From positions 1 through 64,000 of the forward strand of contig CAJQUW010005770.1 of NCBI GenBank assembly GCA_907163375.1: a DNA stretch of 64,000 nucleotides. Reading direction: 5' to 3'. A model generated the notes under the pieces. It made no database searches and was not told the origin of the DNA. It saw nothing but the letters and a program-made list of their open reading frames with translations. The first letter of the stretch is position 1. Every line of letters starts with the position of its first letter. The stretch comes from Prostheceraeus crozeri. Lineage: Eukaryota > Platyhelminthes > Polycladida > Euryleptidae. The translations under genes were made by a program, and so were the position numbers. Shown in pieces: positions 4,049 to 30,059 of this stretch.

Positions 4049-4050
4049 TT

Positions 4051-7210: not shown

Positions 7211-7216
7211 AAGGTC

Positions 7217-9626: not shown

Positions 9627-9632
9627 TGGGTT
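9627..9632. repeat. Target-site duplication, left (TGGGTT)
   Basis: The six bases before the left terminus AGTAGTAAG are TGGGTT, identical to the six bases after the right terminus (30054-30059). Six-base duplications are the Polinton hallmark. Confidence 0.93.
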
Positions 9633-12571: not shown

Positions 12572-12615
12572 TTCAAGTAAGTCAGTATGAAAGCAAAGAT
12601 AATACGAAATAAAAA

Positions 12616-12621
12616 TTTATT
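12616..12621 (-). promoter_or_regulatory. AATAAA signal overlapping the stop of the 149-aa gene
   Basis: On the minus strand the gene ends CCATAATAAATTT. The polyadenylation hexamer starts inside the stop region, the same economy seen at two other genes of this element. Confidence 0.6.
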
Positions 12622-13069
12622 ATGGCATGTATTTCAAAAGTTCTTCATCGTCAATATCGTCCCAGAGTCTGGCTTCACATAGATCACAAAAACAGTTCAC
12701 TTGCTTTAATCGTTCTTCCACTGCAAGCCTCACTTTGTCGATATACTCCCACTCCGCCATAGTTCGTGGCTGGGAGTTAGGGGTGTACCACTCCCATAAT
12801 TGGTGGAGGAATTTGGTGCTGGTGATCTCCATCACATCGTCAGTATCGTACTGGAGATACTTCCACCTCACGCCTGTTAAGTCGGGACACTCCTTCTCAC
12901 ATACACTCTCCTCTTCGTCATCCGCTGCTAATGACAACTTTCTGATATTGTCCAGTCGGTACACCTTCTCTACCATCCCCTTCGTTGGAGCGTTTGGTGC
13001 AACGAGCGCCTTTGGTGTTGAGCATGGAGAAGGGAATTGTGTGTTTGGTGTTGTCGGAGGGCTTGTCAT
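12620..13069 (-). CDS. Acidic protein of the Polinton left end, 149 aa
   Basis: I do not recognise this protein. The N-terminus is rich in Pro, Thr and Ser. The middle has an acidic run (DDEEES), and the C-terminus has a CFCDLC pair followed by DDIDDEE. It is the outermost left gene and points outward, divergent from the polymerase gene with about 240 bp between. It probably shares a promoter region with the polymerase. The ATG at 13069 is the first in frame. The minus-strand sequence TTATTCACAG just upstream resembles a splice acceptor, so an upstream exon is possible. Confidence 0.6.
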   Translation of the reverse strand: MTSPPTTPNTQFPSPCSTPKALVAPNAPTKGMVEKVYRLDNIRKLSLAADDEEESVCEKECPDLTGVRWKYLQYDTDDVMEITSTKFLHQLWEWYTPNSQPRTMAEWEYIDKVRLAVEERLKQVNCFCDLCEARLWDDIDDEELLKYMP

Positions 13070-13173
13070 GTTGACTGTGAATAATAACTTTGAAATGTTT
13101 TCTAATTCTTAAGTATCAACAAGCAACCAATCAGAATGAACAGCCGTGACAGTCGTGTCATTTCACTCTGTCT

Positions 13174-13255
13174 TTGAGACGTATAAGTGAAGTGTTCTCT
13201 GGCGAATTCTATATTTGAGGCGTACAAGTGAACTGCTCTCTCGTGAATTCCAAAT
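13174..13255 (+). promoter_or_regulatory. Duplicated promoter-like segment upstream of the polymerase
   Basis: Two ~41-bp direct repeats each read TTGAG-CGTA-AAGTGAA. The first contains TATAAG (13182-13187), a TATA-like box; the second has TACAAG at the same place. They lie 56-137 bp before the polymerase ATG. Promoter function is inference. Confidence 0.45.
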
Positions 13256-13310
13256 TTGAGTGAAGTCTCTATCTTGTTGAAGTATCAACCTTAAACTTGA
13301 TTTCGTTGAA

Positions 13311-16300
13311 ATGGTAAGTTAAGGAATTCATCAGTCATCTCCCTCAAACGTGTGGCTAATAGCATCTTCCTCAATTTCAGGCATCAACTTCATCACCAAC
13401 GCCCTCCCTTCTCGAGGAAAGTTTAGAGTTGTTGAGTCAAGGTAGGTTGTAACAATACACTGAGACTTGAACAGAGATGATAGAATGATTTCTCTTTCAG
13501 GTGATACCAGTCCCATCTCGAGCGAGTCCATGTCAACATTGTCGCGGGAATGCAACGATCGGGAATGTGCTGACTGTGGGCACATCTTCACGAGGAAGCG
13601 TGATCTCGTCCGACACATCAAGCGAGGTGTTTGTAGACCTAAGTCAGCATTAATCTCCGAAGGTGGGGATGATTCTGTTAACGATGTCTCCTTTTCTTGC
13701 GATTTATGCATTCAGTCTTTTGAGTCACATTTTGAACTATCTTCACATAGACTTCGACATACACACAGTGACGATAGCTATACTAACAGCACCTCCTCTA
13801 TCCGACTCTCTGAAGTGTCGATAAATAATTTAGTGAGGAACTACCAGATGGAATCCTCAGAAACCATTACTGACTTTGAAGAATGGTTTCATCAAAATTC
13901 ATCTTTGATTGGTGCGCTCTTCAACAATTTAGTCAATTTTAGAATGAAGGCGCTCATCTATCTCAAAATAAAATATGTAAAAATCGACCACCATACTGGT
14001 CAAATAGTAGAGAGGTTGGAGTTTCACATACCCTCCTCTCCTGCAACCGAAGTTGTAGACTACGAGTCTTGGATAAATTTCCATATCCAAGGGTTAAAAT
14101 TAAACATAGATAAATTTAACGAGCGTGATAGTGGACTCGTTTTTGATGGTATTGAGACCGCCATGATTAAAATCACTTTATCAGAGAACTACTCTGGACG
14201 AGGCTCCTTTAAACTTCCGAAAAATTTAAGAAATAAAGCAGCAGTCATTTCTGTAGATTGCGAATCGCAATGTTTTAAGTATGCCGTCCTCTCCATTCTC
14301 CACTATAATGATGTACAGAATAGCCGATACCGTCAGAGTAAGTATCAACAGTGGGAGAATGAATTAAAGTTTGATGACTGCAATAGTGAAGATATGAAAA
14401 TTAAAGATATAGAAAAATTTGAAAAATTGAACAACATCAAAATAGTTCTCCATGTTTGGGAAAAGGGATTGAAGGGTGTCCGCTACAACTCGCGTTCGAG
14501 TTGTTATGACCACGTTGTCAACCTTTTATTAGTAAGACAGGATGATAGTGAGGAATGGCACTACTGCGGTATTCCCAAAATTTCTCGCTTATACCACCAC
14601 CTAAGAAATTCTAGCTCATCAGAGATTTATTACTGTGACAGATGCATTCGGAACTTTAGGAGTAAAAACAAATTTGAAACTCGTTACGAATGGTGTAAGC
14701 GAGGTAAACTACAAATGGAGCGCATGCCCAAAGATAAGGAGTTTTCATATAGAGAGAATGGTGATGAACTAAGTCCTCTTCGTGTTATCTATGCTGACAT
14801 CGAATGCTATATCGATGATAACACCCATCGAGCAGCAGCCATTTCCTGCTATGAAGTATGGCATGACCATTTCCAAAATAGAAAAAATAAAATGCACGTC
14901 TGGCAAGGTGAGGATTGTATTTACCAATTTCTACAATTCCTCGAACAGGCTGTAAAATTTCAACAAAAGTATGATGGTGAACTCTATCGCAGATCATTGC
15001 ATATGACAGCAGATGATCAAGCAAAATTTGATAGTTGCAACGTTTGCCTCAAATGTAGGAAAACATTTGATGATGATAAGATTAAGAAAGTGCGCGACCA
15101 TGATCACATCACTGGTAAATTTAGAAACGCACTATGTTCAAAATGCAATTTTTCACTTAGGATGAAACGGCGTACATCACCCGTCATTTTCCATAATTTC
15201 AAGGGCTACGACAGCCATATGATAATAAAAGGAGGTTTAGGTCAAATGAAAGAGTGGAAGCTTGATGTAATAGCACAAACGAGAGAGAAGTTTATGACCA
15301 TGACAGCAAAAGTGCCTGTCGATAAAACTAAAGAAAATAAGACGGTCTATTTTGATATAAAATTTTTAGATTCCTACCAATTTATGACTGCATCACTGGC
15401 CTCTCTCGTACAAAATCTAAAGTCTCTTCCACTAACACAAAATCTTAAGAAACAATATCCAAATGTAACCGATGAAGTCATCACACGGAAAGGAGTCTTT
15501 CCATATGCATATTTTGATGCGATTAGTAAACTCGGCGAGACTTCTCTTCCGCCCATAGATAAATTTAAAAATGATTTGACCGGCGCAGAATGTAAGACCG
15601 AAGATTATGATCATGCACAAGATGCATGGATAAAATTTGACTGCCATACATTTGGCGAATATATGATTGCCTATCTTAAGTTAGATGTATTTTTGCTGGC
15701 TGATGTATTTCAGGAGTTTCGACGAGTGGCATTAGAAGAAGATAAGTTAGATCCCGTCCACTTTGTCAGTCTGCCAGCCATGTCATTTAAGTCTGCTTTT
15801 AAAATGACTGGTGAGACCATTCATCTCTTACAAGATCCAGAGATGTATAATTTATTTGAGCGAGGAATTCGCGGTGGTCTCACATTTGTAAATAAACATA
15901 GGTTAAACTCAAAATTAGTAGGCGATGATCAGACTCATCTTAAGTATTATGACCAAAATAATTTAAATGGTAGTTCACTATCCAAACCACTTCCTCACTC
16001 TGACTTTAGCTGGTTAGATGATAGTGAAATTCAGCATCTCTCCAACCCTTCTAACACACTAGCAATTCCAGATGAAGGTGACCAAAGATATGTTTTCCGA
16101 CTTTATGAAACAATTTTATAAAGATTTAGAATCATGCGGTCAACCCGACTATAAGCCTTGCCGCAAACTTTTACTCACCCAGTATGATAAGGAAAACTAT
16201 CTAGTCCACTTTAGCATCTTAAAATTTTATTTAGAAATGGGTATGATTTTTAAAAGAGTTCACCGCATTATTAAATTTAGACAGAAAGCCTTCCTCAAAC

Positions 16301-17205
16301 CATATATTGATAGCAACAGCCAGAAACGTGCACTAGCCCAAAATAATTTTGAAAAAGATTTTTATAAGTATAAGAATAATAGTCTATTTGGTAAGACGAT
16401 GGAGGATGTTAGAAAACGTGTAAACTATAAACTAGTCAATGATGTTCCGAAATTTAAGAAATTGGTCTCATCACCTCTATTCATCGATAGAGACATTATC
16501 GATGAGGACCTTGTAGGTGTTAAAATGATAAAATCTGAAGTTGAGTTGTGCAAGCCCATCTATATTGGCCAAGCTGTACTAGATTACTGTAAGCTTGAAA
16601 TGTACCAACTCTTTTATAAAATACTAAAACCATGTCCTCTCGTAAAAGAGGTTCGTTTGTTGGGTGGTGATACAGATAGTTTCTTCTTAGGTATTACCAC
16701 TCAAAAAGATTTAAATTTCAATGAAGTAGGAAAATCTTTAGAAAGATATTTTGATACATCAAATTATCCTACTGATCACCCACTCTACTCCATCAAAAAT
16801 AAGACAAAACTTGGCTGCTTTAAGGATGAGACAGCAGGGAAGGAAATAGATGAAATGATTCTCCTCCGACCAAAAATGTATAGTATGAAATTGAGGGATA
16901 GCAACGATAGTATTAAGCGTGCTAAAGGCATATCAAGATCATTAGTCTCTAACATGAAACATAAAAATTTCAGGAAAGCCTATAGAAATAAAAATATAAC
17001 GTTTGTCAATATGACAATCTTAAAATCTAAGTCGCATGAGATCAAAACTCATACTTTTAGGAAACGGGCGCTTTCAGCATGGGAGGATAAGAGGTGCTGG
17101 TTAGAACATAACATATCTCTTCCACATGGACATCCTGACACAAACATACCACCACCCAAAAGAATTAAACTCACACTACCACATTCAGGAGACGTCTTAG
17201 CATAA
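13311..17205 (+). pseudogene. POLB: Protein-primed family B DNA polymerase, spliced and frameshifted
   Basis: This is the replicative polymerase of the element. Exons are 13311-13313 (ATG alone), 13381-13441 and from 13501. The introns, 13314-13380 (67 bp) and 13442-13500 (59 bp), have GTAAGT/GTAGGT donors and TTTCAG acceptors, and the spliced frame is continuous. Order of domains: two C2H2 zinc fingers (CADCGHIF and CDLCIQSF), a conserved N-terminal block with SQCFKYAVLSIL, exonuclease motifs YADIECY, FHNFKGYDSH and AYLKLDVFLLADV, a DHDHITG zinc/HNH-like insert, palm motif A as YYDQNNLNG, then KNNSLFGKTMED and motif C GDTDSF. Two defects show: motif A has Asn where the family has Tyr (LYG), and the frame shifts near 16075-16090. 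There the LEVDLEYP-type segment expected after motif A is missing. Confidence 0.93.
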
Positions 17206-17354
17206 TCATCCTTAACTTAGTATTTTCATGTTGATTTCTGTAGATAAACATTGCTGTTTTATGTATCGCATGAGATCGTTTCTTCCTTGTGAATATATGC
17301 CTACAGTCAGCCCATTCCCCCTATATCTGTGAAAGACTTTTTCATACACATATT

Positions 17355-17368
17355 TTTATTTCAATAAA
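17355..17368. promoter_or_regulatory. Back-to-back polyadenylation signals for convergent genes
   Basis: AATAAA on the plus strand (17363-17368) lies 158 bp after the polymerase stop. AATAAA on the minus strand (17355-17360) lies 24 bp after the stop of the convergent two-module gene. The two signals almost touch. Confidence 0.65.
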
Positions 17369-17383
17369 CATATCACAATGACT

Positions 17384-20340
17384 TCACTTTGTTTTCCGAA
17401 ACACTAAAGTTACGAGGGATTTAGTATCTTTCACATGGATGCACTCTTGTAAACCATTGGTAATTTTGATAGTAATAGAGGGTATAGTTTGTTTGACGAC
17501 GGGATGATAGAAAATAGATTCAAACATCTTCTCGACTATTCCATATGAAGCGTCTTTATCATGAATGAAATCACGTAAAATGTATTCTTTTTTCTCACCA
17601 ACAGAAATAGGTAGAATCAAATCACTTTGAATGTAAAGGTGCTGTTCATGTTTATCAAGTGTCATTGGTGTTTCTATACCAATCGTATGCGCAGCAGTAA
17701 ACACAGTTTGTAGCATTGAAAAACCAAAGCGTTTTTCAAATTTTTACTCAATTGACATTGAATGTCATCACCCAGTTTCAGAACAACGCGTTGATTTTCA
17801 ATTGAAAACGAAATGTGGTGTGTCTTTACATCATATTTACTTTTCATCACATGCTTCAACTTCTGTTGTATATAAGGATTTAATACATGAATGAAGCTTT
17901 CAACTGTATGATATAGACGCGGCATTATATTGATAGCAACTTTAGATTCTTGATAAGACTGGTAAATTTTCTTGATGCGGTCACCATAGATGTCCACCCA
18001 CCATTCATCATTATCTGAATCAGCTTTAGTGTGATATTCAAGAGAAGCATACACCAGACCGCTTCCAATAACAGGGGTTGGATGTCTTACAAAATGGCGC
18101 AAGGTTAGAGAGAAGTAAACTGTAAGTTTGTCATTATATTTCTGAATAACCAACTTATTTTTGTCCGCCATAATTTTCGCTCCATACTTCTTACCCACAG
18201 TCTCATTCCATCGTTTTACTAACTCAATAAGTGATAAAGGTTGAACACCACGCTTTTTCAAAATGATGCGTTCTTCGCATTCTACAACATCTTCATCAAA
18301 TATTTTAAATTTATAATGAAATTTGTTGATTCGATTTGAATAAACTTTTTCAACATTTGCAGTAGCAATTGACGTTAGATGTAGTCCATGACCAAAACCG
18401 AGATGTGGATAGAATTCATTATCCAACCTCAGTGTAAGACCTTTAGTAAAAGAATGAAAGCGAAGGAACTGTCTCCCACTCCAATGATAGATAGTAAACT
18501 CATAAACTTTCTGATCCTTATTCTTCATGATGGAAGTATTACCACTGTTGAATGCCGTAATAATTTTCTCATTCCCAAATGGACCATAATAATCTGATTT
18601 TATCTGAATCCATTCATAGTTCCACTTTCCATCTGACGTTAAATTGTATGGGAACTGGAATGCATTATTCATCGTTATTCCATCATGGGTGCGAGGAGTC
18701 AATATCATTTCTTCCAAATCATTCACATTCTGAATATTGCTATCATAGCAAATACTAGAAACGCCAACCTCCCATTCACCTTCTAAATGTAGTGGGCGAT
18801 TTAATTCTACTCGATAGTCTGATGGTTTATTTTTGGGAAATTTATTCATAGAAGCATTACTGGGCAAGTAGATTAGAAACGAGTCCTTATTTTCACTTTC
18901 CATATTATTCACATTGGAAAAATATATTAGCATACTTTTGCATTTACTCTTCATTCGGAAGTGGAGTGTGATACTTGTCACAGCATCTTTATGAAAAGGA
19001 ATCAACGCACCAGCATCGTCATAAATTGCAATATCAATTTGTGGGATGTAGTTTGATTTCAGCTTTGTATAATGCACTTTCTTGAAAGTATGCTCAGATA
19101 AAATACTGCATCTTTTTGGCTGGTATGGTATCATTGCTAAAAGTGGAGCTTCAACATCTCCCACACGTACATCTTCACCAATATTGGAATATATCTGAAA
19201 ATAGTTAATACGACGCGATAGTGACATGTCTGCGCTAGCTTTGGTTACAGTACCACTTTTAAAGATATTTTGATCAAAACCCAAAATGTCCATTAGAGTT
19301 TTATCCATAATTAGTTCAATACCTTTTCCACTTATAGTGAGAGACAAAACACCTTCTTTTTCAGAAAATGAAATTTGTTGGTCATTAATCACTTCATTTA
19401 AATAATCTACAACCAATTTAACTGAAGTAATAATGCGAGGCATCAACACTCTTGTTTCATGTAAGACACCACCGAAAGGCTCTACACACTTTCTGTATAA
19501 AGATACGGTCCATTCTGTATCAAATTGATTTGACCTTTCACATGGTAAATGTTGCATATCAAATTTTCCATGAACAGCTGCAGAACGATGTCGTAAGAAC
19601 TGATGAAAATCTTTTGAACAAACTAATACTAGATCATCATCATTTAATTTACTTATTGCAATATGATTAGATGATTTGATATAAGTCAATGTTGCCACTT
19701 GTTTACCATCAACTCGAAGGAGATAATTAAATTTCTTCAATAATGTTTCTGGAGTCATGTTTGTCTTTCTTGGCTTATTCACAATCTTCTTCACCAACGT
19801 CTTCTCATGTTTTGGAATAAGATCTACATAATAAGCTTCCTCTCGATATATTAACTGTTTATGACCACTTGGGTGGTAATTAACGTTATAATTATCATAG
19901 CTTGTTAAGGCGCTAGCGAGGTAACCTAAATCATTTCTTAAACTTAGACTTAAACCAACAATCCAATCTTTCTCAACTACATGATGTACATAATTATGAT
20001 CATCATTGTGCGGAGTAAATTGGACAATATGTTTACACGCTTTATTCAGGAAATCATATATAAACTTTTTACATGATAAGAGATCTTTCTTTGGCCACTG
20101 TGGAATGTATACTCGGCAGCCCTTTTCACATTGGTAAGCAGCTGTACGTCTCATATTAATAGTCATCACCTCATGATCAAAAGTATAGACACAGTTGCTA
20201 TGAACAAGTTGAGTGACACCCACTTCCCACTTTCCATTTAGCTGTTGTGTATGATCAATGGACTTAGAAAAGAGTGCGGCTCGATTACTAGCAAATCTCT
20301 TTGTAGCCGCATTGCTAAGCAAAATATGATAAAACGACAT
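17384..20340 (-). pseudogene. Two-module Polinton virion-type protein, frameshifted
   Basis: Two tandem copies of one ~450-residue module. Module 1 opens FYHILLSNAA and has NGKWEVGVTQL. Module 2 (from about residue 480) opens LIYLPSNAS and has EGEWEVGVSSI. Module 1 ends in a DDAGALIPF...TLHFR segment. Module 2 ends in a VTLVFR segment, but only after a single-base frameshift near 17700-17720. Upstream of it 888 codons are open; downstream 110 codons continue the homology. The LPSN...GEWEVG family is common beside Polinton genes in invertebrates. I infer a virion role (minor capsid or fibre-like), not proven. Its start lies only 35 bp from the divergent PC4-like gene. Confidence 0.75.
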
Positions 20341-20375
20341 TTTGATATTGCTGATCTGCGGCTTTGCATAACATC

Positions 20376-20732
20376 ATGAAGACTTGGATTTTGGACTCTC
20401 TACAATATATCAGAGTTGATCGTGATGGAAACGTGCATTTCAAAAATTCTCATGGTCATACATCAAGAGGTATTACATTAACATGGCGACAATTTGTCAA
20501 CCTCAATGATATCATGAGGGATTTGGAATATTTTGAAACATTAAGATTCATCTCCTTGGGTGATCAAGTTTGGCTTCAACATTACAGAAATGAAATTCAA
20601 ATTTACCATTCTCATTCCGCAAACTGTTTCTCATTTCGCAAATACAATTGGGAGAATTATAGAAGATACATACATCGCTCCATCATGACATTTATTCGTC
20701 GTGAGTTCATCGCCCTACTATGCAAATCTTAA
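20376..20732 (+). CDS. PC4-like putative transcription coactivator 1, 118 aa
   Basis: The protein reads as two short repeats of a beta-strand region followed by a helix. The first has YIRVDRDGNVHF then RGITLTWRQFVNLNDIM. The second has VWLQHYRNEIQIYH then FSFRKYNWENYRRYIH. This spacing resembles the PC4/SUB1 single-stranded DNA-binding fold (strand block, KGISL, QW..L helix), a coactivator that works with TBP in eukaryotes. Similarity is by eye and modest. The ATG at 20376 is the first true ATG and matches the start of its paralog at 20755. It is divergent from the two-module gene. Confidence 0.5.
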   Translation: MKTWILDSLQYIRVDRDGNVHFKNSHGHTSRGITLTWRQFVNLNDIMRDLEYFETLRFISLGDQVWLQHYRNEIQIYHSHSANCFSFRKYNWENYRRYIHRSIMTFIRREFIALLCKS

Positions 20733-20754
20733 TCAGACATGACTACCACGCACC

Positions 20755-21405
20755 ATGAGTTGGAAATTAGATTCCCTACAACGTATTGAAACGGATCATG
20801 ATCGAAACGTCTATTTCATAGATTCAACTGGAAATGTGAGAAGAGAGTTTGCTTTATCTTATCGTCATTTTCAATCTCTACATCATATCATGAAGGATTT
20901 GAAATACTTCTATATGAAAAGACATTCACGTATTGGAAATCGCATCTGGTTGCGCGTCAACAATCGGCGAATTCAACTCTATCATTCCCAACTTCATACT
21001 AACTTCACATTTCATCAAGGTAGTTGGGAAAAGTATAAAAGGAAGGTACATCGCTCAATTTACTCATTCTTTCATCATGAAGCGCCATCGCTACACCATC
21101 GTCAACATTCTCCGTCGCTTCAGACTCTACACCAAAATCGATCTCACAACATTACACCAACACCTTCCAAACAGCAAGTATTACCCGGGCCGACCTCAAA
21201 TGTTAGTGGTGAAGATGAACAATTCACGGAATCTTCAACTCTTCCAAAATGGGACTGTACAGATTTTCGGCGCCCTTTCTCATTCATCGGCGCAGTCAAT
21301 GCGCTTAGAGCTACAAAGACTACTACGTCGGATATGGAAGAGGGAGAGGTGTGTGATGTCGAATCTGACTGTGGACAATATGGTGATCTCTACTCAATTG
21401 AGTGA
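20755..21405 (+). CDS. PC4-like putative transcription coactivator 2
   Basis: Paralog of 20376-20732. WKLDSLQRIETD matches WILDSLQYIRVD, and IWLRVNNRRIQLYHS matches VWLQHYRNEIQIYHS. Homology covers about the first 105 residues, so the pair arose by tandem duplication 22 bp apart. The remaining ~110 codons are low-complexity and overlap the TBP-like gene in another frame. The true functional end may therefore be earlier, or a frameshift removed the original stop. Role as for its paralog: possibly ssDNA binding or coactivation, inferred. Confidence 0.5.
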   Translation: MSWKLDSLQRIETDHDRNVYFIDSTGNVRREFALSYRHFQSLHHIMKDLKYFYMKRHSRIGNRIWLRVNNRRIQLYHSQLHTNFTFHQGSWEKYKRKVHRSIYSFFHHEAPSLHHRQHSPSLQTLHQNRSHNITPTPSKQQVLPGPTSNVSGEDEQFTESSTLPKWDCTDFRRPFSFIGAVNALRATKTTTSDMEEGEVCDVESDCGQYGDLYSIE

Positions 21406-21622
21406 AAGGGTATCATTTTTGAAGATTCATACCAGCAGTTACAATTTGTGTTATGAACCCGAACTTTTTCCTGCAGCTCTCATTAGTTGTTGGTTACCTG
21501 TGCATGTGGCAATCTTTCATAATAGTAAAGTGATCATTACTGGACTAAAATCTCATGTACAAGCAAATGTGATCCTAGACTATCTCATCGAGTATGTACG
21601 TACCCAGCGGATTGTAAAATAA
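21077..21622 (+). CDS. TATA-binding-protein-like protein, 181 aa
   Basis: The length equals a TBP core domain and the two pseudo-repeats are visible. Repeat 1: IVN, KIDLTTLHQHLPNSKYYPGR, then LFQNGTVQIFGALS with SAQS. Repeat 2: NMV, CYEPELFPAALI, then VAIFHNSKVIITGLKS. TBP family equivalents are the NAEYNPKRF, LIFSSGKMVCTGAKS, YEPELFPGLIYRM and LIFVSGKVVLTGAK blocks. Of the four Phe that kink TATA DNA in TBP, three appear retained (LFQN, ELFP, AIFH) and the first is replaced. I chose the ATG at 21077 because it begins just before the fold. An upstream in-frame ATG (20933) only adds sequence overlapping the PC4-like gene. The stop lies inside AATAAA. It would bind promoter DNA in the nucleus or a viral factory. 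Confidence 0.85.
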   Translation: MKRHRYTIVNILRRFRLYTKIDLTTLHQHLPNSKYYPGRPQMLVVKMNNSRNLQLFQNGTVQIFGALSHSSAQSMRLELQRLLRRIWKRERCVMSNLTVDNMVISTQLSERVSFLKIHTSSYNLCYEPELFPAALISCWLPVHVAIFHNSKVIITGLKSHVQANVILDYLIEYVRTQRIVK

Positions 21623-21653
21623 AAAACAATTTTTCCAACATGATGTTTTTATT
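21618..21653. promoter_or_regulatory. Convergent polyadenylation signals embedded in stop codons
   Basis: On the plus strand AAAATAAAA contains both the TBP-like stop TAA (21620-21622) and AATAAA (21618-21623). On the minus strand AAATAAAAA contains both the protease stop and AATAAA (21648-21653). Confidence 0.65.
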
Positions 21654-22110
21654 TCAAATCATGATAGAACTTACAAATCATTTTTTCATTAGAGGAAGGA
21701 TTACATGAAAAGTTTTGAATAACAGATACAAATCGAGATACATGTAAACGTTTTAAGATGAAGTACAGTACAAAAGCACCACACGTTGATGAAAGTGGAT
21801 GTTGTAGTATGCGTTCATTTCGCTGATATTGACGCGTATGTTTTCTCAACCACTGCTGTGTTGGTATATTTGGAGGTTAAGCAAGAGAGTCAAATAGTTC
21901 ACCACGTCGGTCTTCTCCAATAAAGATCGCTTTCCAATGCTCACCACCTAAATTCTGCGAATGAGTGTTTAGCACAATAAAGATGGGATAGTGATTTACT
22001 GCAGGTGGTAAGGTATCGAGTGAATAGACATTATCGAAAGCTTTCAACGTCGCTTCGTCTGCATTACGCTGCACTTTAGTCTTAATATCGTCAGCAGTCA
22101 ACCAACTCAT
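21649..22110 (-). pseudogene. PRO: Adenain-like cysteine protease with one nonsense codon
   Basis: This is the maturation protease that would process capsid precursors. The catalytic His is in GGEHW (His58), the acid in ELFDS, and the nucleophile Cys in SSTCGAF. All 153 codons are in one frame except codon 78, TAA at 21877-21879. Copy A has CAA there, so this is a recent C-to-T type change inactivating copy B. The ATG overlaps the capsid stop (TAATG). Its length and motif spacing match the adenovirus protease family. Confidence 0.88.
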
Positions 22111-23387
22111 TAACGATTATACTGAAGAATCACGTCACGATACTTTATAATTTCAATATTTGAATCGAAGACTGCATAAATTAATACATTGATCGTCTCA
22201 GGTAGTGTTCTTTTGAACGTCAAATCCAAACGAATATTATGAGGCACGTTCGCTTGACGATAGGGTGCACTAATATCGCTGTCAGCAGTCAAATCAAATG
22301 CATAAATAGTATATCCACTCTTAAACTCTTTCATAGTAAGTCCGTTGGTGTCATCCGTATTGTAAAAGCCAAAGACATCCATAAAATCAACATAACTGTG
22401 CATAAATTGATCCGCAGCAAAATCTGGTTTGTAGGGTGGACCACGATGACTCACACCATTTACACGTAAAGCAATTTCACTTAACTGATTGTGTTTAAAA
22501 TTGAAAGGATTCTTCTTTATATTACCATTAAATGCATCATTTTCAACCATTGCCACCATGAGGAGCTTCGGTGCTTCCGATGGAAAGAGGCCATCTTTCA
22601 TGAAACTCTTTTGATCTTTCGGAATTGTAAAGGTGAGAAGCTTTGTATGCTGAATGGGGTAAATGGCATTTTGGCGGTTAAGACCTTCAGCATGCCCTCT
22701 AAAGACACTTGGATTTGGTACTACTCGACGAATGTAAAGTGCAATATCTTCCACATGAACTCTAAAATTGTCAACTTTAGCAAATGCATTAAGCGCAAAT
22801 TCAGGCTTATTCAATGTCAGCTTGAGTCGCATGCTGGTATTACAGAGTAAAAACTTTGACTGTCTAAAGAAGTCTAAATTCAGCGGACCATATAGCTGAC
22901 ATACTCTACTATCTTTAATCATAGCAGATCGCTTTACAAAGCCACTGTTTGTTTCAGCATCAAATTTTCCTGCTTCATCTCTGTACCATCCCATGGCTTC
23001 CATATGACTTTTTTGTGCTGCCGGATGAAACTGTGATACATGATTGAAATATGATTTATAGGGATAATCGCTTTGACCACCTTCCACCTGCTGCTCTCCA
23101 ATCGTTAGAGAAACATCGCGAAGTAATGTAGTCAATGGTAAATTGTTCAGTCCAACTTTATGTGCATTGTCAATAGCAGTTCCATCTGCTTGCTGAATTC
23201 TAAACCTCAAATCAACCATCGCATAACTCAAATCTATGTAGTCAGCACTACCACCAGGAATAACAAATTCAATGGGACCAGCATTCTCAGCTGTTCGAGG
23301 ATGATAATCTACAATACTTGAACTAAGAATATCTGTCTGTATGGCTTGTTGATCAAACAAACAAAACCCGGAAGTTTTACACTCCAT
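22110..23387 (-). CDS. MCP: Major capsid protein, double jelly-roll, 425 aa
   Basis: This is an intact homolog of the Polinton hexon-like capsid protein, annotated in many invertebrate genomes as F54H12.2-like. Visible landmarks: an N-terminal IDLSYAMVDLRFRI strand pair, LTTLLRDVSLTIGEQQV, the PYKSYFNHV block, and ALYIRRVVPNP between the two halves. A C-terminal half follows, ending with YTIYAFDLTAD and LDLTF strands. Length fits the family. It would assemble the icosahedral shell. It sits between the mu-like gene (2-bp gap) and the protease (1-bp overlap), the same neighbours as adenovirus hexon. No break is seen. Confidence 0.9.
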   Translation of the reverse strand: MECKTSGFCLFDQQAIQTDILSSSIVDYHPRTAENAGPIEFVIPGGSADYIDLSYAMVDLRFRIQQADGTAIDNAHKVGLNNLPLTTLLRDVSLTIGEQQVEGGQSDYPYKSYFNHVSQFHPAAQKSHMEAMGWYRDEAGKFDAETNSGFVKRSAMIKDSRVCQLYGPLNLDFFRQSKFLLCNTSMRLKLTLNKPEFALNAFAKVDNFRVHVEDIALYIRRVVPNPSVFRGHAEGLNRQNAIYPIQHTKLLTFTIPKDQKSFMKDGLFPSEAPKLLMVAMVENDAFNGNIKKNPFNFKHNQLSEIALRVNGVSHRGPPYKPDFAADQFMHSYVDFMDVFGFYNTDDTNGLTMKEFKSGYTIYAFDLTADSDISAPYRQANVPHNIRLDLTFKRTLPETINVLIYAVFDSNIEIIKYRDVILQYNR

Positions 23388-23389
23388 GA

Positions 23390-23521
23390 TTAGAAGTTAT
23401 AGCAGCGTCGTCGTTTAGCGCCTGATGAATGATTAGAGCTTCTGCGACGTTTGCGTGAATGCCTTTTGACTGAAGATCGCACCTTACCAGCTCCGCGATG
23501 TTTCCTCCTTCCTTTATTCAT
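23390..23521 (-). CDS. Mu/pX-like very basic core protein, 43 aa
   Basis: This small ORF begins MNKGRRKHRGAGKVRSS and ends KRRRCYNF, with about 18 Lys/Arg in 43 residues. Its ATG directly follows the stop of the pVI-like gene and its stop lies 2 bp before the capsid ATG. Such spacing leaves no room for anything else and supports a real gene. Size, charge and position recall the adenoviral DNA-condensing peptide mu (pX), but similarity is compositional. DNA condensation in the virion is inferred. Confidence 0.6.
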   Translation of the reverse strand: MNKGRRKHRGAGKVRSSVKRHSRKRRRSSNHSSGAKRRRCYNF

Positions 23522-23845
23522 TCACTTCGGTGATTTCTTTCCTTGAGTAACACCAGCAAAGGTCTGCTTCAATGTTTTTAAACCGCGTTCCTTCCCACGA
23601 TTCAACAAACTGCTCTTAAAACTTCTACCTCTGGAAAGATCACTAGTGACATCACCAGCAAAGCCAACGGCATTACTTAAAACATTTCGTTTTAAAGATC
23701 CACCGACTTCGGATATGAGAGGTGCTACAACAGATTTCAGTGCACCAAGTATGCTACCTCCACGTTGGCGGCGAGCGCCGATGTAAATTTGTCCTCCACT
23801 ACTTACATAGGAGGGTCGTGAATAAAATGAGGCAGTTGGATTCAT
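23522..23845 (-). CDS. pVI-like minor virion protein, 107 aa
   Basis: It has an N-terminal aromatic/polar stretch, then RRQRGGSILGALKSVVAPLI, a potential amphipathic helix. After that come VGGSLKRNVLSNAVGFAGDV and a basic tail. Polintons commonly carry a protein of this shape (GG-SIL-hydrophobic helix, then a G-rich region with basic tail) next to the capsid gene, compared with adenovirus pVI, a membrane-lytic protease substrate. Gene order (pVI-like, mu-like, capsid, protease) supports the call. A GG site near residue 29 could be a protease cleavage site. Confidence 0.6.
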   Translation of the reverse strand: MNPTASFYSRPSYVSSGGQIYIGARRQRGGSILGALKSVVAPLISEVGGSLKRNVLSNAVGFAGDVTSDLSRGRSFKSSLLNRGKERGLKTLKQTFAGVTQGKKSPK

Positions 23846-23886
23846 AGCTCAAACCCTAAACATTGTTAGTTACAACTTTGCATGAA

Positions 23887-25107
23887 TCACTGTCGATCAC
23901 TTAGATGAAAGATGTCGGCACGACGCATCCAAGAGCTCATACTTGAAGGATAACCAGTCCATTTAACAAGACACCATTCTTCACCTTGTCGTTTTTTACA
24001 CCGAATGATTTTCTCTACCAAATATGTTTCACTTTCAGTGACTATCTCAATCTCATCGCGGTAAAAGCTACCCTCAATTTCTTCATTATCGTAATCTTTC
24101 AACTTGCAGGTGGTGGGAGAGTCTTTTTGATTAATCCTTGATACTGTAAATACCTCCTCTGTCCAATTCGGAAGGTACCCTTTAGCAAAAACACTCTTCA
24201 CTTTTGAGATACGAACTTTATCACCAATTTTCACATCACTTTTCACATGAGTGCGTTTACGTTGGAATGATTCGCGCACTTTATCTACATTGTCAGCATT
24301 TACATCTACTGGTCTGAGTCCAATAGAACGATGGATAGAGTGATTGTAGGCATGGAGTGTATCTTGTAGAACCTTTGTCCAATTTTGTGTCAAGTTCGCA
24401 GTAAAATGTCGCCACAAGCGATTTTTTAATGTGCGATTAAAACGTTCAACGAGTGCAGCTTTATAAGCACTCTTTACACTAAACAACTCAATGTCATGCC
24501 TCTCAAATAATCTTCTCACATGCTGATTTTCAAACTCTTTTCCTTGATCACTCTGAATTCTTTTTGGAATGCGACCTTCTCGAAAAATTGTTTGGAATGC
24601 TTTTGCTACTCCTTTCCCTTCTTTAGTTTTTAAAGGTTGAGCCCACGCATAACGCGAGAAAATATCAATGACGGTTAAAATAAAATTATTGCCCGAGTTA
24701 TGTTTTGAAATGGAGGCGACATCGCACAAATCTGCTTGCCACTGTTCATCGATGTCATGAACAATATAATGGCGGGTGCGGTACTTCTTTTTCGCTTGTT
24801 TATGGAGTGTATAGGTAGCCTGACCCTTTAACCATCGTTTCACTTGTGATTGTGGAAGACCACTCGCTTTTGATAATTTCTTGATAGATGCAAATCCTGC
24901 CGGATGTTTTACATCATAATAGATTGACTTCAAACGTTCAGTCGATGACGACTGACTCTTTTTCCTCCTTCTCATCTTTTTGCTTTCTTGCCTTTCTACA
25001 TTTACAACAACTGCAGGATTTAGCTTTAGCGGTTTTGCTATCGTGTTCACATTGCTTAGGGGTTTCATTGTGAGAGCTGGCGCAGCAAGTGCAAGTGACA
25101 ACGACAT
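23887..25107 (-). CDS. INT: Retroviral-type integrase with chromodomain, 406 aa
   Basis: This enzyme would insert the element and create the 6-bp duplications. Order: basic N-terminal extension (residues 41-50, KKMRRRKK), the Polinton-specific KSIYYDVKHPAGF and VKRWLKGQATYTLHK block, then the RNase H-like core with D126 (WQAD), D187 (QSDQGKEF) and E221 (LVERFNRTLKNRLW). A C-terminal chromodomain follows (YLVEKIIRCKK, LVKWTGYP, about residues 355-400), which may read histone marks. Full-length and undamaged here. Start at 25107 is the first ATG in this frame. Confidence 0.95.
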   Translation of the reverse strand: MSLSLALAAPALTMKPLSNVNTIAKPLKLNPAVVVNVERQESKKMRRRKKSQSSSTERLKSIYYDVKHPAGFASIKKLSKASGLPQSQVKRWLKGQATYTLHKQAKKKYRTRHYIVHDIDEQWQADLCDVASISKHNSGNNFILTVIDIFSRYAWAQPLKTKEGKGVAKAFQTIFREGRIPKRIQSDQGKEFENQHVRRLFERHDIELFSVKSAYKAALVERFNRTLKNRLWRHFTANLTQNWTKVLQDTLHAYNHSIHRSIGLRPVDVNADNVDKVRESFQRKRTHVKSDVKIGDKVRISKVKSVFAKGYLPNWTEEVFTVSRINQKDSPTTCKLKDYDNEEIEGSFYRDEIEIVTESETYLVEKIIRCKKRQGEEWCLVKWTGYPSSMSSWMRRADIFHLSDRQ

Positions 25108-25154
25108 TCACCTCTGGCGGTTCATTACATGGCAAGCAACACATCTGCTTCATA

Positions 25155-25847
25155 TTAGTAGTCCGAGAACATGTATTTCTTGGGAGGAGCTGCTTTACGT
25201 TTTCCTTTTACTAGTTTTAGTGGTGGCGTAGATCTACGTCGAGTTCTTCCTCTTGTTTGCTTAGTGAGTGTGGGAGGGGATGTAGCAGGTGACGTCTGAA
25301 ACCAATTTGTTGGCATTTTCATCGTCTGAAGCATTGGAGCAGTAGCCACTGTTGAATCAAGTTCTTTCAATGTCTCATTATTCAAAGCAAATTTTGGTAC
25401 ATTATGCTTTTTCAATAGTTTAAGAAAGTATGACCAACCAGGTGGAACATAGCCCTGACGGCGCTTTCTACGTGTCGCATACTGAATCAAGTCTTCATAA
25501 CGTGAAGCATCAATCACTTTATTTTCATCTGTAATGATTTCTTCTCTATCATTTACATTGAGATGGGGTTCAATACTATTGAAAAGAGATATGGCATGTG
25601 CGCGAGATGCTAAAGGTGTAGCAGTCGATACAGAGTCACGCATCTTATTCTTCAAGTTTTTCAATTGCTCAACAGTTTCGGATTGTAATAATACAGCACG
25701 ATGTGGATCTTTGATGTGAACATTTTGCTGATAATCTATTTCTTTCCTATACATTTGATTTGCAAGAGGTTGCTTTACTTGCTGCATGGCAGTCAATTGT
25801 ACATATTCATCCTGAGGAATAACAATCATGTGAGAATAAGAACTCAT
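25155..25847 (-). CDS. Conserved Polinton protein between ATPase and integrase, 230 aa
   Basis: The protein has an N-terminal polar region, then an acidic helix region (DREEIITDENK), then RRKRRQGYVPPGWSYFLKLL followed by a NVP segment, and ends in a Lys/Arg/Pro-rich tail (KRKAAPPKK). A family with a PPGW..FL..L...N+P core is recurrent in Polintons and related elements. I know no demonstrated function. The basic tail suggests nucleic acid contact (inference). It lies 5 bp after the ATPase stop and 1 bp before the cysteine-rich alternative frame of the integrase. Confidence 0.68.
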   Translation of the reverse strand: MSSYSHMIVIPQDEYVQLTAMQQVKQPLANQMYRKEIDYQQNVHIKDPHRAVLLQSETVEQLKNLKNKMRDSVSTATPLASRAHAISLFNSIEPHLNVNDREEIITDENKVIDASRYEDLIQYATRRKRRQGYVPPGWSYFLKLLKKHNVPKFALNNETLKELDSTVATAPMLQTMKMPTNWFQTSPATSPPTLTKQTRGRTRRRSTPPLKLVKGKRKAAPPKKYMFSDY

Positions 25848-25852
25848 AGTTT

Positions 25853-26461
25853 CTAGATAATCATGGGAGTTTTCAAAATATCACTTCGAAATCTAAATTC
25901 TTCCGGACACTCTTGCGTAAAGTCAATGAATAAGTAACCGTGTGGTTTTTCAGTAGCTGCTTGAAAAATTTCAATTAAGGCTTTTGATCCTCTGGGTGCA
26001 ACTTGTCGCGCTAAAATTTCAAATTGACTTTTATCTCGCGGATTCTTGAAAATAGCATAATAGTGTGTATTCAGGTTTCGTGTACGAGCTTCTTTTCCAT
26101 CAGGAAACAAATTTTGTGTGATATAGATGATAAAGCACCTTTTATGGTGTGCTACGCGAGTGAACATATCTGTAACATCTTTTGAATTCTTACTTTCTTT
26201 TAATAAATCATCCAATACAACAACATCATTAGACTGAAGTTTATCCACTGGAATAATTCCTTCATGTCGAATAAAGTTGCGACTTTGCAATTCCTGAAAC
26301 AGCGACGGTTGATAAATACCATAACACCAAATCACTCGATTGATAGGTTCCTTAAACAACTCCCTTCTTTTATCCAATAAATTCAGCGTGAAAACAGTTT
26401 TACCTGCATGAGATGGACCTGATACAGTCAGAACTTTATCACATTGAAGTCTGAAATCCAT
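25853..26461 (-). CDS. ATP: FtsK/HerA-superfamily genome-packaging ATPase, 202 aa
   Basis: Walker A is GPSHAGKT (residues 15-22), Walker B VVVLDDLL (80-87), and a sensor-like ITQN (114-117) follows. This is the A32-type packaging ATPase of Polintons, which drives DNA into capsids. The frame is open upstream to 26509 but only with a TTG, so the ATG at 26461 is chosen. Walker A near the N-terminus is usual. Copy A has three extra C-terminal residues; a TAC-to-TAG change shortens copy B, probably harmlessly. Confidence 0.88.
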   Translation of the reverse strand: MDFRLQCDKVLTVSGPSHAGKTVFTLNLLDKRRELFKEPINRVIWCYGIYQPSLFQELQSRNFIRHEGIIPVDKLQSNDVVVLDDLLKESKNSKDVTDMFTRVAHHKRCFIIYITQNLFPDGKEARTRNLNTHYYAIFKNPRDKSQFEILARQVAPRGSKALIEIFQAATEKPHGYLFIDFTQECPEEFRFRSDILKTPMII

Positions 26462-26492
26462 TATAATACTTTGAGATTCAATATTTGCATAA

Positions 26493-26780
26493 TTAACGTC
26501 TAGAGCCAAAGATATTACCCAATACGTTGCTCACGATAGGAGCTAGCATCAGTAGTAACGCTGGAAGGAAACCGCCCTTTTGTGTTAGAGTTTCCCTCTT
26601 CCTTTGAAGGGTGACTTTAGGATTGGAGATGAAACGCAATTTCGCAGCATATCGCTTAAGTAACTTTCGTTGTTTTGGTGCTAATTTCTTCGTCCTCAAC
26701 CTCCTCACATGAGAAATAATTTCACGAATGAATTTATCGTTAGCATGTCGTATAGCATTGTATCGCTGATTTGCTTTCAT
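26493..26780 (-). CDS. 95-aa basic protein with hydrophobic C-terminus
   Basis: Residues 1-65 are rich in Lys/Arg (RRLRTKKLAPKQRKLLKRY). Residues 69-90 are GGFLPALLLMLAPIVSN, a hydrophobic or amphipathic segment after a GG pair. Polintons often encode a protein of this design near the ATPase. A virion or membrane-penetration role is possible, and GG may be a protease site. Its end overlaps the open frame leading into the ATPase gene by 17 bp. Confidence 0.62.
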   Translation of the reverse strand: MKANQRYNAIRHANDKFIREIISHVRRLRTKKLAPKQRKLLKRYAAKLRFISNPKVTLQRKRETLTQKGGFLPALLLMLAPIVSNVLGNIFGSRR

Positions 26781-26894
26781 TCGTCAGAGAGCTTGAATGG
26801 CTGAAGAAAACTTTGAAGACTTTTGACTTTTACGTTTCGCCATTTTCCGTGTTAGTCTTTGCTAAAACCTATCTTTACCACATTTGCATAGGTA

Positions 26895-27218
26895 CTAACT
26901 ATTGCGACATAAGTGACACTCGAAATGAGCAATATCACAGTGGTTACATTGGCAAAGTTGAATGCAATTACGTATGAAACAGCGTTGACAAAAAGCATGC
27001 TTACATCTCTTGAAGATGCGCTTTTCATTTCCATCCTTTCGCTTACATACATCGCAACACATAGTTTCACCGTTACTGATGTCTATAGCAAGTCTTTTTG
27101 AAGATATGAATTTGCTAGCCTTTTCTAAATAATAGGCGCATGTACAGAAGGAATATACTTCGAGAGTGAGCAGACATAGCTCGAAAACCAGTTGTGCTAC
27201 AATCAAGTACCACTGCAT
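26895..27218 (-). CDS. Membrane-anchored C3HC4 RING-finger protein, 107 aa
   Basis: Residues about 5-31 are a hydrophobic segment (LIVAQLVFELCLLTLEVY), likely a transmembrane anchor. Residues 55-94 form a RING: C55-x2-C58-x13-C72-x-H74-x2-C77-x2-C80-x10-C91-x2-C94, exact C3HC4 spacing. RING domains recruit ubiquitin-conjugating enzymes, so an E3 ligase acting at a membrane is the natural inference, perhaps on host proteins. Copy A keeps every ligand but changes two non-ligand cysteines. The ATG at 27218 is used (the upstream start is TTG), 2 bp after the previous gene's stop. Confidence 0.7.
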   Translation of the reverse strand: MQWYLIVAQLVFELCLLTLEVYSFCTCAYYLEKASKFISSKRLAIDISNGETMCCDVCKRKDGNEKRIFKRCKHAFCQRCFIRNCIQLCQCNHCDIAHFECHLCRNS

Positions 27219-27220
27219 TT

Positions 27221-27631
27221 TCAATTTTTCTTTATGGAAAGTTGAAGGTGAATATCTGAAATCGCTTCAATCACTAGACTGCTACCATGATGGTTAAATG
27301 CGTTAAGACGTTCAGCAATTTTTATCATATGTCTTTTAAAAAATTCTTGGGGGTGATCTACCACTTCCATTGAATAAGAAGCAAAATGAAAAGAGCGACT
27401 TTCCACCTCTTCCTTTCCAAAATGACTAAACTTAATTTTCGCAACTAATCGCGCCATGATAATGCTATCAGAGAATGTATTCATTAACTCTAGAAATAGA
27501 GTGCTAGCATCATCGACCACTGCTTCGATGTCGGTCTCATCTTTATGAAAATTTATCACATAATCTTGAACAGCTCCTTTTAAACTTTGCCTATGAAAAT
27601 GTAATGTTCCGCAGTCGTTTGAGAAAGACAT
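27221..27631 (-). CDS. Conserved Polinton protein, 136 aa
   Basis: Intact in both copies. It resembles a family seen in many Polinton-rich genomes: N-terminal DDASTLFLELMNTF, a middle of alternating hydrophobic and polar strands with SRSFHF, then helical ERLNAFNHHGSSLVIEAI. No catalytic residues are evident. Situated between the exonuclease-like remnant and the RING gene. Function unknown. Confidence 0.58.
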   Translation of the reverse strand: MSFSNDCGTLHFHRQSLKGAVQDYVINFHKDETDIEAVVDDASTLFLELMNTFSDSIIMARLVAKIKFSHFGKEEVESRSFHFASYSMEVVDHPQEFFKRHMIKIAERLNAFNHHGSSLVIEAISDIHLQLSIKKN

Positions 27632-27718
27632 GATCGCCCTTTATCTAACCCATCCATTGCATGAAAACAACAACTCTTCTCATAGTAACATTTATTGAAT
27701 AACGGTAACAAGCATGCA

Positions 27719-28249
27719 TTATAAATCAATGGTTTGAAAGAGATAAAATAGATACAGCTGGTAACTATCATACAGCGAGCAATGATAACCATACAGGACT
27801 TTGGCAGTGTTGAGGTAAGGAGGAAAGAAGCATTGGTTATGAACGTAGCTACTACAACGAACAGACAAAATAGGAACAGACAAATCCTTAAAACGTTTCG
27901 TGACTTCATGGTAGTGTTGATTCACTCTACTATCCCAAGGAAGGAGCAAAATATCATCAATGATTAGATTGGGAAATACTTTCCTCTCCTTACCAGGATT
28001 ATTACAAAAGATGCGTATAACATTGTAAGCAGCTTACCATCGTTTAAAGTCAATAAGAAGAACAGTCTCACAAGAAAAGCCATAGTCTTGCAAATATTTC
28101 AGATTAAGTCCATGAATGTGTTTTCTCGCCCATTGATCAACATTGGGATCGCAGTTGGCATGTTGATGATAGACACTAACAATCTGATATGTTCAATTGT
28201 TCATAGCAATAGCACTGAGCTCCTGTACAGGTTCACCCTCACAATCCAT
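27719..28249 (-). pseudogene. DEDD (DnaQ-like) exonuclease-like pseudogene
   Basis: A single 177-codon frame shows MDCEGEPVQELSAI (D-x-E of motif I, with the P-x-Q-E pattern of this family), DQWARKHIHGLN (the HG(I/L) element of DnaQ-type nucleases), FCNNPGKE, and a C-terminal LPWDSR...VLYGYHCSLYD block. It is broken by TGA (28193-28195) and TAA (28034-28036). Both stops are also in copy A. The family occurs in Polinton-rich animal genomes. A 3'-5' exonuclease role is inferred. The real N-terminus was probably further upstream. Confidence 0.68.
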
Positions 28250-28301
28250 AAAAATGATGATAGAAGCCTAAAACGGAAATTTACACATCTAAGGAAACGT
28301 T

Positions 28302-28427
28302 CTATAACATATTACAAAATGAAGAATTACATCGATGCTTTTCACGACAAAATACACAAATGATATGATGGCAACGAAGAAGTAAAATGTATCTAATAAG
28401 ACCACGTCTACGACACTCAAAGCACAT
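28302..28427 (-). CDS. Small zinc-finger-like ORF, 41 aa
   Basis: It begins MCFEC and continues RCHHIICVFC then C-x4-C. The ligand pattern C-x2-C-x15-C-x-H-x2-C-x2-C resembles a RING or related zinc finger, but the last pair is spaced x4, not x2. It lies just upstream of the exonuclease-like frame and could be its former N-terminal zinc domain rather than a separate gene. Copy A has lost one ligand (C to W). An alternative overlapping frame is a hydrophobic 50-mer. Confidence 0.33.
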   Translation of the reverse strand: MCFECRRRGLIRYILLLRCHHIICVFCREKHRCNSSFCNML

Positions 28428-28461
28428 AAGCGAATTGTCATAGGGTAGAGTTAGGAAAGGA

Positions 28462-29236
28462 CTAGTAATTCTCCTTCTTTGATTTGCGTTTTGATGCAGC
28501 ATTCTTCTCCGACTTGCGCTTCGTACCACTGCTGTTAAGGATTTGATCAATTATGTCATCTACGTTGGGTGGTTTTGGAATATATAGGATGGATTCCATA
28601 TGCATGGAGAGAGAGACTATTTTATTATCCTTGTGTCGACCATAATATAGCCCATTCACTTTGAAAAAGATATCCCAAGTACCTTCTCCGAGCTCATCAC
28701 ATCTGATGGGTATTGATTGATCTCCCTCCTTCTTATAGTAAGTGCACCAATGTGATACCGGTAGGCAAATGTGATTACCATCCCAAATCTTTCTATAGGG
28801 AGTATCCTTGTCATCTCTCGCCTTCCACTCTTGAGCAAGAGGAGTAGGAATGTCCATATTTAATGTCACGTACTCCTCAATAATATCAAGTTGGCGGCGA
28901 ATGTACGGACTCACGGGGATCAGTATGTAGTCCCCATACTGATTGCGCATTATCTTGACATCCGTGGAAGGGAGCATTCCCGTTTGGAGTACTACGCTAT
29001 GATCGTCATAACGCAAGACTTGTTTAAATTTACGCTGTAGCGGTGTAGGATTATGTACCTTGGTTGTTTCTTCCACTGGCCTCAGTTGTAGATGATCTGA
29101 TCGTAGCGAACCTTGTAACGTTTGACCGCCATTTTGTCCTACTAGTGCAGCAGATGGAGTAGATGCCTGAAAATGAAAAAGATTGTATTAAGTTTACGTT
29201 CAAGGGAGATGAGGGAGGAAAGTAGCGACTTACCAT
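28462..29236 (-). CDS. Spliced right-end Polinton protein, 242 aa
   Basis: Exon 1 is only the ATG (29234-29236). The intron 29167-29233 (67 bp) starts GTAAGT and ends TTTTCAG. Exon 2 (28462-29166) opens ASTPSAALVGQNGG. The middle has VVLQTGMLPSTDV and YGDYILIPVSPYI. A later block is VNGLYYGRHKDNK then SLSMHMESILYIP, typical of a Polinton-linked family (V-x-G-x-Y-x-G-x-H-K, then SL-x-hydrophobic). The tail is Lys/Ser-rich (KRKSEKNAASKRKSKK), like a nuclear localisation or nucleic-acid-binding tail. An OB-fold ssDNA-binding role is a guess. It is the rightmost gene and points inward. Confidence 0.72.
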
Positions 29237-29327
29237 TTTAGTTGGATAATAGAATAGAGAGAGAGAAAATGTGCGTCCGTCACTCGTGTGATTCAACGAT
29301 GGAATGATTCTCACTGTGGAAGGCTCG

Positions 29328-29338
29328 CTATTTATATA
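29328..29338 (-). promoter_or_regulatory. TATA box of the right-end gene
   Basis: The minus strand reads TATATAAATAG about 92-102 bp before the ATG, leaving room for a start site ~30 bp downstream and a short leader. It is the strongest TATA box in the element, and the element also encodes a TBP-like protein. Confidence 0.6.
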
Positions 29339-29388
29339 GAAATGCTTGATTCTCATTGGATGATGATCCTCATTGGACAATAACATCA

Positions 29389-30053: not shown

Positions 30054-30059
30054 TGGGTT
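30054..30059. repeat. Target-site duplication, right (TGGGTT)
   Basis: Identical to 9627-9632; see the left partner. Confidence 0.93.

Follow-up and report, generated by a model that had tools for sequence, protein, structure and literature searches.

Within the window, by which we mean the whole 64,000-nucleotide stretch of Prostheceraeus crozeri DNA that was analysed, the open reading frame (ORF) 21077-21622 encodes a genuine two-repeat protein of the TATA-binding protein (TBP) family, carried inside a complete Polinton [Table 1]. On the plus strand the frame runs uninterrupted from ATG to TAA through the 181 codons of its product; the minus-strand frame translated at the same locus contained many stops. 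The preliminary description of this DNA had read the product as TBP-like, with both pseudo-repeats, a YEPELFP block and three of the four DNA-kinking phenylalanines, and had called for a profile search and for structure prediction with comparison to TBPs; its reading was borne out on each point. The Pfam TBP profile (PF00352) was matched in two stretches corresponding to both repeats, at 74.3 bits (cut-off 22.9; E 6.8e-21), and a PDB sequence search with the 181-residue product returned 35 matches, every one of them a TBP or TBP-containing chain (best E 2.5e-12). The structure predicted by AF2 from a 32-sequence input (pLDDT 94.0, pTM 0.85) has the pseudo-symmetric saddle fold of the TBP family, and TBPs or TBP-containing chains filled ranks 1-44 when this model was compared with the PDB by Foldseek. 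The YEPELFP block spans residues 126-132, and comparison with yeast TBP placed F56, F131 and F147 at three of the intercalating positions and P40 at the fourth.

As in other Polinton/Maverick elements (Polintoviricetes), the carrier has an integrase with rve and chromo domains, inverted termini beginning 5'-AGTAGTAAG, a 6-bp target duplication and PolB-, capsid- and protease-like ORFs. For the double jelly-roll capsid, the adenain-like protease and the FtsK-like ATPase there are candidate ORFs that suit in location and length, with profiles that were weak or silent. The capsid- and protease-like ORFs were identified by eye only, from motifs that we take to be those of a major capsid protein and of adenain; the former had no match in Pfam, PHROG or PDB sequence searches and was open in 99 of 99 scored genome copies (the best matches listed, out of at least 99), and the latter, which had no Pfam match, adjoins the TBP gene as the preliminary description had it. 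An endonuclease VII domain was detected by Pfam in the PolB region, a putative protein-primed polymerase, where we also read by eye a GDTDS stretch, presumably the motif of that name; neither PolB piece matched a Pfam polymerase and the second had no PDB match. PolB is split into two ORFs here (overlap 16072-16121) and also in the second Polinton family described below (L069, ~7568-7577). The 888-residue ORF (ORF888) had no significant Pfam match, and the Pfam scan, which took in the element's larger ORFs and part of the small ones, revealed no RNA polymerase.

Table 1 Coordinates of the Polinton, its genes and its promoter elements in the window
Feature	Position	Strand	Basis
Complete Polinton, 20,421 bp, ends AGTAGTAAG...CTTACTACT	9633..30053	.	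Terminal inverted repeats and 6-bp target duplication
Target-site duplication TGGGTT, left	9627..9632	.	Same 6 bp at 30054-30059
Target-site duplication TGGGTT, right	30054..30059	.	Matches left copy 9627-9632
Left terminal inverted repeat region, ~775-bp interruption at 9864-10637	9633..11224	.	Inverted matches to 29386-30053
Right terminal inverted repeat	29386..30053	.	Inverted matches with left region
PolB region, two overlapping ORFs in different frames (13485-16121, 16072-17205)	13485..17205	+	L069 similarity; endonuclease VII domain; GDTDS by eye
ORF888, 888 aa, possible structural protein, divergent from PUR-like gene a	17674..20340	-	Conserved beside TBP
PUR/Whirly-fold-like gene a, 118 aa	20376..20732	+	Predicted fold
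PUR/Whirly-fold-like gene b, 216 aa, last 108 codons overlapping the TBP gene in another frame	20755..21405	+	Similarity to gene a
TATA box TATAAAAG of TBP gene, first T at -32 from initiator A	21034..21041	+	Sequence reading; conservation
Initiator-like TCATTC, A at 21066	21064..21069	+	Sequence reading; conservation
TBP-family gene, 181 aa	21077..21622	+	Pfam PF00352 E 6.8e-21; AF2, Foldseek, VIA
Adenain-like protease ORF (partial, 77 aa)	21877..22110	-	Motif by eye
Major-capsid-like ORF, 425 aa	22110..23387	-	Motif by eye; conservation
Small basic core-like ORF (pX-like)	23522..23845	-	By eye; no Pfam support
Integrase, rve and chromo domains	23887..25107	-	Pfam rve 5e-11, chromo 2.2e-6
Packaging-ATPase-like ORF	25853..26461	-	Weak: AAA_14 0.0086, Pox_A32 0.033, both below cut-off
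Predicted spliced gene, promoter TATATAAATA 29338-29329, intron 29233-29167	28462..29236	-	GT...AG and in-frame continuation

Elsewhere in the window, a second Polinton copy (1-7212) is 98-99% identical over the shared parts and is deleted internally over its capsid and integrase genes; its TBP gene would fall beyond the window's start. An array of a ~305-bp satellite (51910-64000, 39 copies) may derive from the element, since its units match the terminal-repeat stretch 29491-29665 at ~82%, inverted. Reverse-transcriptase ORFs at 32704-41522 form ~2.7-kb tandem copies plus one inverted copy.

Conservation of the Polinton TBP gene extends to many relatives, its linkage to Polinton genes was found repeatedly, and the element carrying it is present in hundreds of copies in the source genome. 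All 150 copies of the gene scored in this 2.05-Gb genome (the best 150 of 11,822 first-look candidates) were uninterrupted and 97-100% identical over all 181 residues, and the ORF is therefore no chance frame. The 150 matches listed for a yeast TBP query comprised 3 host genes and 147 element-type matches at 24-26% identity, 142 of the latter uninterrupted. A third query, P0061, found at least 150 further places, 142 of 150 without stops; by eye none coincided with the places found with the window's TBP, two contigs being common to both searches at different coordinates. These genome counts are lower bounds that favour the best matches (at least 150, or at least 99 for the capsid). In public protein data, 31 relatives were recovered by single-sequence search, and a profile search gave 353 matches at E<=0.001, of which the best 120 were examined and the remaining 233 may include other TBPs.

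The preliminary description had proposed looking for the same ORF in other Polintons, and capsid- and protease-like ORFs indeed lay near TBP in all 40 copies fetched, namely set A (20 of the 150 copies listed, chosen by TBP score and so biased towards intact TBP) and set B (20 of the 99 copies listed, chosen by capsid). In set A, ORF888, both PUR-like genes, TBP and the protease and capsid ORFs were matched in 20 of 20 copies, the core and integrase ORFs in 18, at mostly constant distances; a single HSP, the best, was retained for each gene, and genes other than TBP were in many cases matched in part, as often happened with ORF888. In set B, TBP was full-length in 20 of 20 copies, ungapped and stop-free in 18 and with one gap in 2. 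The capsid ORF of one copy (L026) lay ~1.4 kb further from TBP. Two of the P0061-query places, read as DNA (L069 and L070), represent a second Polinton family whose TBP is 44-45% identical to that of the window and has upstream of it, in both, a PUR-like gene of weak similarity (E about 1e-4). The gene order of L069 is different, with PolB following TBP; the two PolB ORFs of the window, searched apart, were 59% and 62% identical to the corresponding L069 region. L070 also has PolB pieces, rearranged, and the TBP start of L069 is that of P0046.

The source genome encodes a host TBP, 80% identical to yeast TBP in the larger of its two exons, and also a TLF-like gene separate from the element TBP (L068, G000:C3829:151400-152200), a fragment 40% identical to yeast TBP whose identity as TLF/TRF2 is our assumption and which would point to an animal host. 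TBP as such is thus not lacking in the host. The Polinton protein shares with TLF/TRF2 the loss of a phenylalanine from a TBP-family protein. It is 25% identical to yeast TBP, and the median identity of the element family to eight references was 19-24% (maximum 28%). In a tree that took in 9 of the 12 IMG/VR TBP loci, 11 element rows lay apart from the 15 references, which were eukaryotic, archaeal and viral; the split had 100/100 support, and its long branch leaves the root unsure. Recent capture of the host TBP is strongly contradicted by this split and by an identity to yeast TBP of 25% as against the 80% of the host's own protein, and decay or a chance frame is contradicted by the open copies (150/150 and 142/147); in favour of either there are only Q57, F64 and R111 in the window copy, positions at which most fetched copies have other states, and we consider these explanations very improbable indeed. 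Within the genome, the pN/pS of TBP was 0.30 for set A versus window, 0.94 for set B versus window and 0.41 for A versus B, the corresponding values being 0.46, 0.21 and 0.23 for the capsid and 0.06, 0 and 0.06 for the protease (rows with gaps or partial matches excluded; 19/20 and 18/20 retained for TBP). Given the value of 0.94, selection on TBP between set B and the window is not evident. Conservation of TBP is clear at the scale of the family, but not all comparisons of these close subfamilies make purifying selection evident.

Contact residues were counted in 125 family rows (P0001, the 31 single-sequence relatives and 93 new rows from the profile search) against the yeast residues that we take to touch DNA or TFIIB. 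Equivalents of yeast F116, F207, N159, V161 and T215 were found in 125 of 125 rows, that of F190 was Phe in 124, and that of N69 was kept in all 112 rows with a letter there; the C-terminal half retains most DNA contacts. The TFIIB-contact acids of canonical TBPs are likewise present, the equivalents of yeast E186 and E188 being Glu in 122 and 124 rows. The combination of four intercalating phenylalanines and hydrophobic minor-groove contacts that marks canonical TATA reading was absent: F99, the first intercalating Phe, is Pro in 120 of the 125 rows, L114 and V122 are each Gln in all 125, and T124 is Leu, Met or Phe in all 125, with T112 replaced by Asn in 117, V71 by Met in 109 and L205 by Ala in 118. 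His143, invariant in the family, pairs with yeast V203 if the strand is read ungapped; this V203-H143 and L205-A145 pairing is our own reading of a strand in which MAFFT put a gap. V203 and L205 are presumably the positions altered in the yeast altered-specificity mutant TBPm3. On what we assume to be the TFIIA face, K138 is changed to Glu in 111 of 125 rows and K97 to Gly in 123. The Polinton protein thus resembles cellular TBPs (eukaryotic and archaeal, PF00352) in its two-repeat saddle, YExELFP stirrup, three of four intercalating phenylalanines, central Asn/Thr and TFIIB acids, and differs from them in its low identity to yeast TBP, the Pro at the first Phe position, polar residues at hydrophobic minor-groove contacts, a changed TFIIA face and its encoding by a mobile element. 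Judged from the sequences, a conserved rewrite of this kind would fit changed DNA specificity better than decay.

Since KSHV ORF24 offers a precedent, and the contact surface is altered with phenylalanines and TFIIB acids kept, we infer that this is a Polinton-specific viral TBP whose DNA specificity has changed and which, by way of TFIIB, draws host RNA polymerase II (Pol II) to promoters of the element, a reading that we hold to be somewhat better than an even bet. The TBP gene would be expressed early, from a TATA/initiator promoter readable by the host; the protein would fold into the TBP saddle and bend DNA with its three phenylalanines; its rewritten surface would bind element promoter sequences rather than ordinary TATA boxes; and the retained docking acids would bring in host Pol II via TFIIB. 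Transcription of the element's own genes, most likely the late structural ones, would be directed in this way, and directing it is the best reading of the protein's role. The same TFIIB acids, together with the altered TFIIA face, would also suit an inhibitor or decoy that occupies host TFIIB or TFIID and so shifts host transcription; against such a function, which strikes us as improbable, the conserved intercalating phenylalanines and central Asn/Thr imply DNA contact.

Recruitment of Pol II by an altered TBP has its nearest parallel in the herpesviral vTBPs KSHV ORF24 and EBV BcRF1, which, in the parts of the sources available, share with the Polinton protein a viral TBP-like fold, kept phenylalanines, a polar DNA interface and reliance on host Pol II. 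In herpesvirus vTBPs the TBP domain is flanked by a Pol II-binding N-terminal domain and a C-terminal domain, whereas the Polinton protein consists of the TBP domain only; it is, moreover, recognised by the ordinary Pfam TBP profile and keeps the TFIIB acids that ORF24, in the portions consulted, lacks. ORF24 is described in the available text as retaining Phe and having a polar interface without TFIIB acids (PMC12529657) and as taking TBP's place at late promoters (PMC7498053).

A TATA/initiator pair with 32-nt spacing, missed in the preliminary description, lies directly upstream of the TBP gene. Among fetched set-A copies its TATAAAA was kept in 19 of 20 and TCATTY in 20 of 20, and both elements recur in L069 with unchanged offsets. 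Of the 27 usable in-frame N-terminal extensions among public relatives (29 sequences minus the parsing artefacts P0027 and P0108), 19 fit this spacing and 8 do not, as judged from protein letters only; one of the 19, P0067, has T-K instead of I-K. Across the element, TATAWW followed by TCAKTY was commonest at 32-37 nt (5 cases, against 0-3 in the other 6-nt bins tried), and TBP alone among the 17 listed gene starts had the pair within 200 nt. The strong TATA box noted earlier at 29328-29338 is real: it reads TATATAAATA on the minus strand, has TCATTC 31-33 nt downstream and precedes the predicted spliced gene (28462-29338), in which initiator, ATG then GTAAGT, a 67-bp intron and an in-frame second exon follow. 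A further match, at 18923, falls inside ORF888. Introns are not observed in intact vertebrate Mavericks according to the part of PMC8097293 available. ATGCAAA occurred 29-38 nt upstream of 4 of the 17 starts (20369, 20720, 23883 and 26490), a result reached in 2/1000 and 6/1000 position-aware controls; a control without position was not significant (182/1000 reached 4), and the motif was absent within 100 nt upstream of all seven starts checked in the second family. Comparison of the element's gene starts gave no clear late-promoter motif.

These promoters bear on whether the protein is instead a plain spare TBP that reads ordinary TATA boxes and either boosts the element's TATA promoters or frees them from host TFIID control. 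The TATA and initiator at canonical spacing before the TBP gene and the spliced 28.5-29.3 kb gene would suit this, as would the DNA contacts kept in the C-terminal half; we nevertheless find it unlikely, in view of the minor-groove contacts, whose changes are invariant or nearly so across the 125 family rows, and of the scarcity of TATA/initiator pairs, which precede a single one of the 17 listed gene starts and the spliced gene. The changed contact surface argues that the protein does not simply read ordinary TATA boxes, and the link from TBP to the 29.3-kb box drawn in the preliminary description is consequently conjectural, unlike the box itself.

The N-terminal half of the protein may owe its oddities to another cause. 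The PUR-like gene b, 41% identical to gene a over its first part (both have PUR/Whirly-like predicted folds, the PUR/Whirly/PC4 fold being one of two beta-beta-beta-beta-alpha repeats as in Pur-alpha I-II), overlaps the TBP gene by ~330 nt in a different frame, and the arrangement is repeated in L069 (PUR-like 3783-4412, TBP 4072-4611), the PUR-like ORF entering the TBP gene by 108 codons in the window and 112 in L069, in the same alternative frame. Overlaps of such length were reached in 0/5000 (window) and 1/5000 (L069) trials of a recoding control and in 1/5000 of each in a permutation control, and the long PUR-like frame was intact in 27 of 31 gap-free aligned copies (of 40); raised synonymous conservation was not found in the PUR/TBP overlap. 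Because the overlap covers the N-terminal repeat, it offers a second explanation for the unusual residues there, which the PUR-like frame rather than DNA reading could have shaped. The PUR-like neighbours, and the closeness of PUR-like, TBP and PolB genes in the second family, would also accord with a factor that shapes DNA at the terminal repeats during replication, integration or packaging and that has the PUR-like proteins, as binders of single strands, for partners; such a factor would not need conserved TFIIB-contact acids, and we give it only a slim chance beside recruitment of Pol II to element promoters.

Giant viruses and mirusviruses often encode their own RNA polymerase. They also encode TBP folds (BFVD matches), whose sequences are separate from the Polinton TBP in the tree with 9 of 12 IMG/VR loci; the accessible parts of the respective papers describe giant and algal virus TBPs (PMC11464507, PMC4602308), a mirusvirus TBP (PMC10132985), TBPs in elements of putative mirusvirus origin (PMC10675990) and a Megavirus-encoded RNA polymerase (PMC11464507). 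In the available text of PMC8097293, the TBP and PUR-like genes are outside the eight core genes of vertebrate Mavericks. In line with the preliminary description, which did not know TBP as a standard Polinton gene, no report of a Polinton TBP was found in the accessible portions of the literature on Polintons, adintoviruses and Mavericks with TBP, mostly non-subscription papers; nor was the term TATA found in those of PMC8097293, PMC4028283 and PMC10120064. Taken as a whole, we tentatively suggest, as a possibility falling short of even chances, a large, apparently unreported Polinton lineage with an altered-specificity TBP that redirects host Pol II to the element's own non-TATA promoters. 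Its gene and that of a PUR-like protein binding single-stranded DNA would form a conserved overlapping pair, and this TBP would have arisen independently of the herpesvirus mimic.

Nearly all archaea and eukaryotes have TBPs, and Polintons are often taken to be ancestors of many DNA viruses of eukaryotes. To our knowledge, few viruses dependent on host Pol II bring their own TBP. The Polinton TBP adds a possible transcription module to these elements and, because contact residues changed together and three kinking phenylalanines stayed, amounts to a natural experiment in TBP sequence specificity. Compact, single-domain and highly conserved, it offers a directly testable case of a mobile element possibly reprogramming host promoter choice and, if the proposal is true, would be a compact viral transcription switch, separate in evolution from the herpesvirus TBP mimic.
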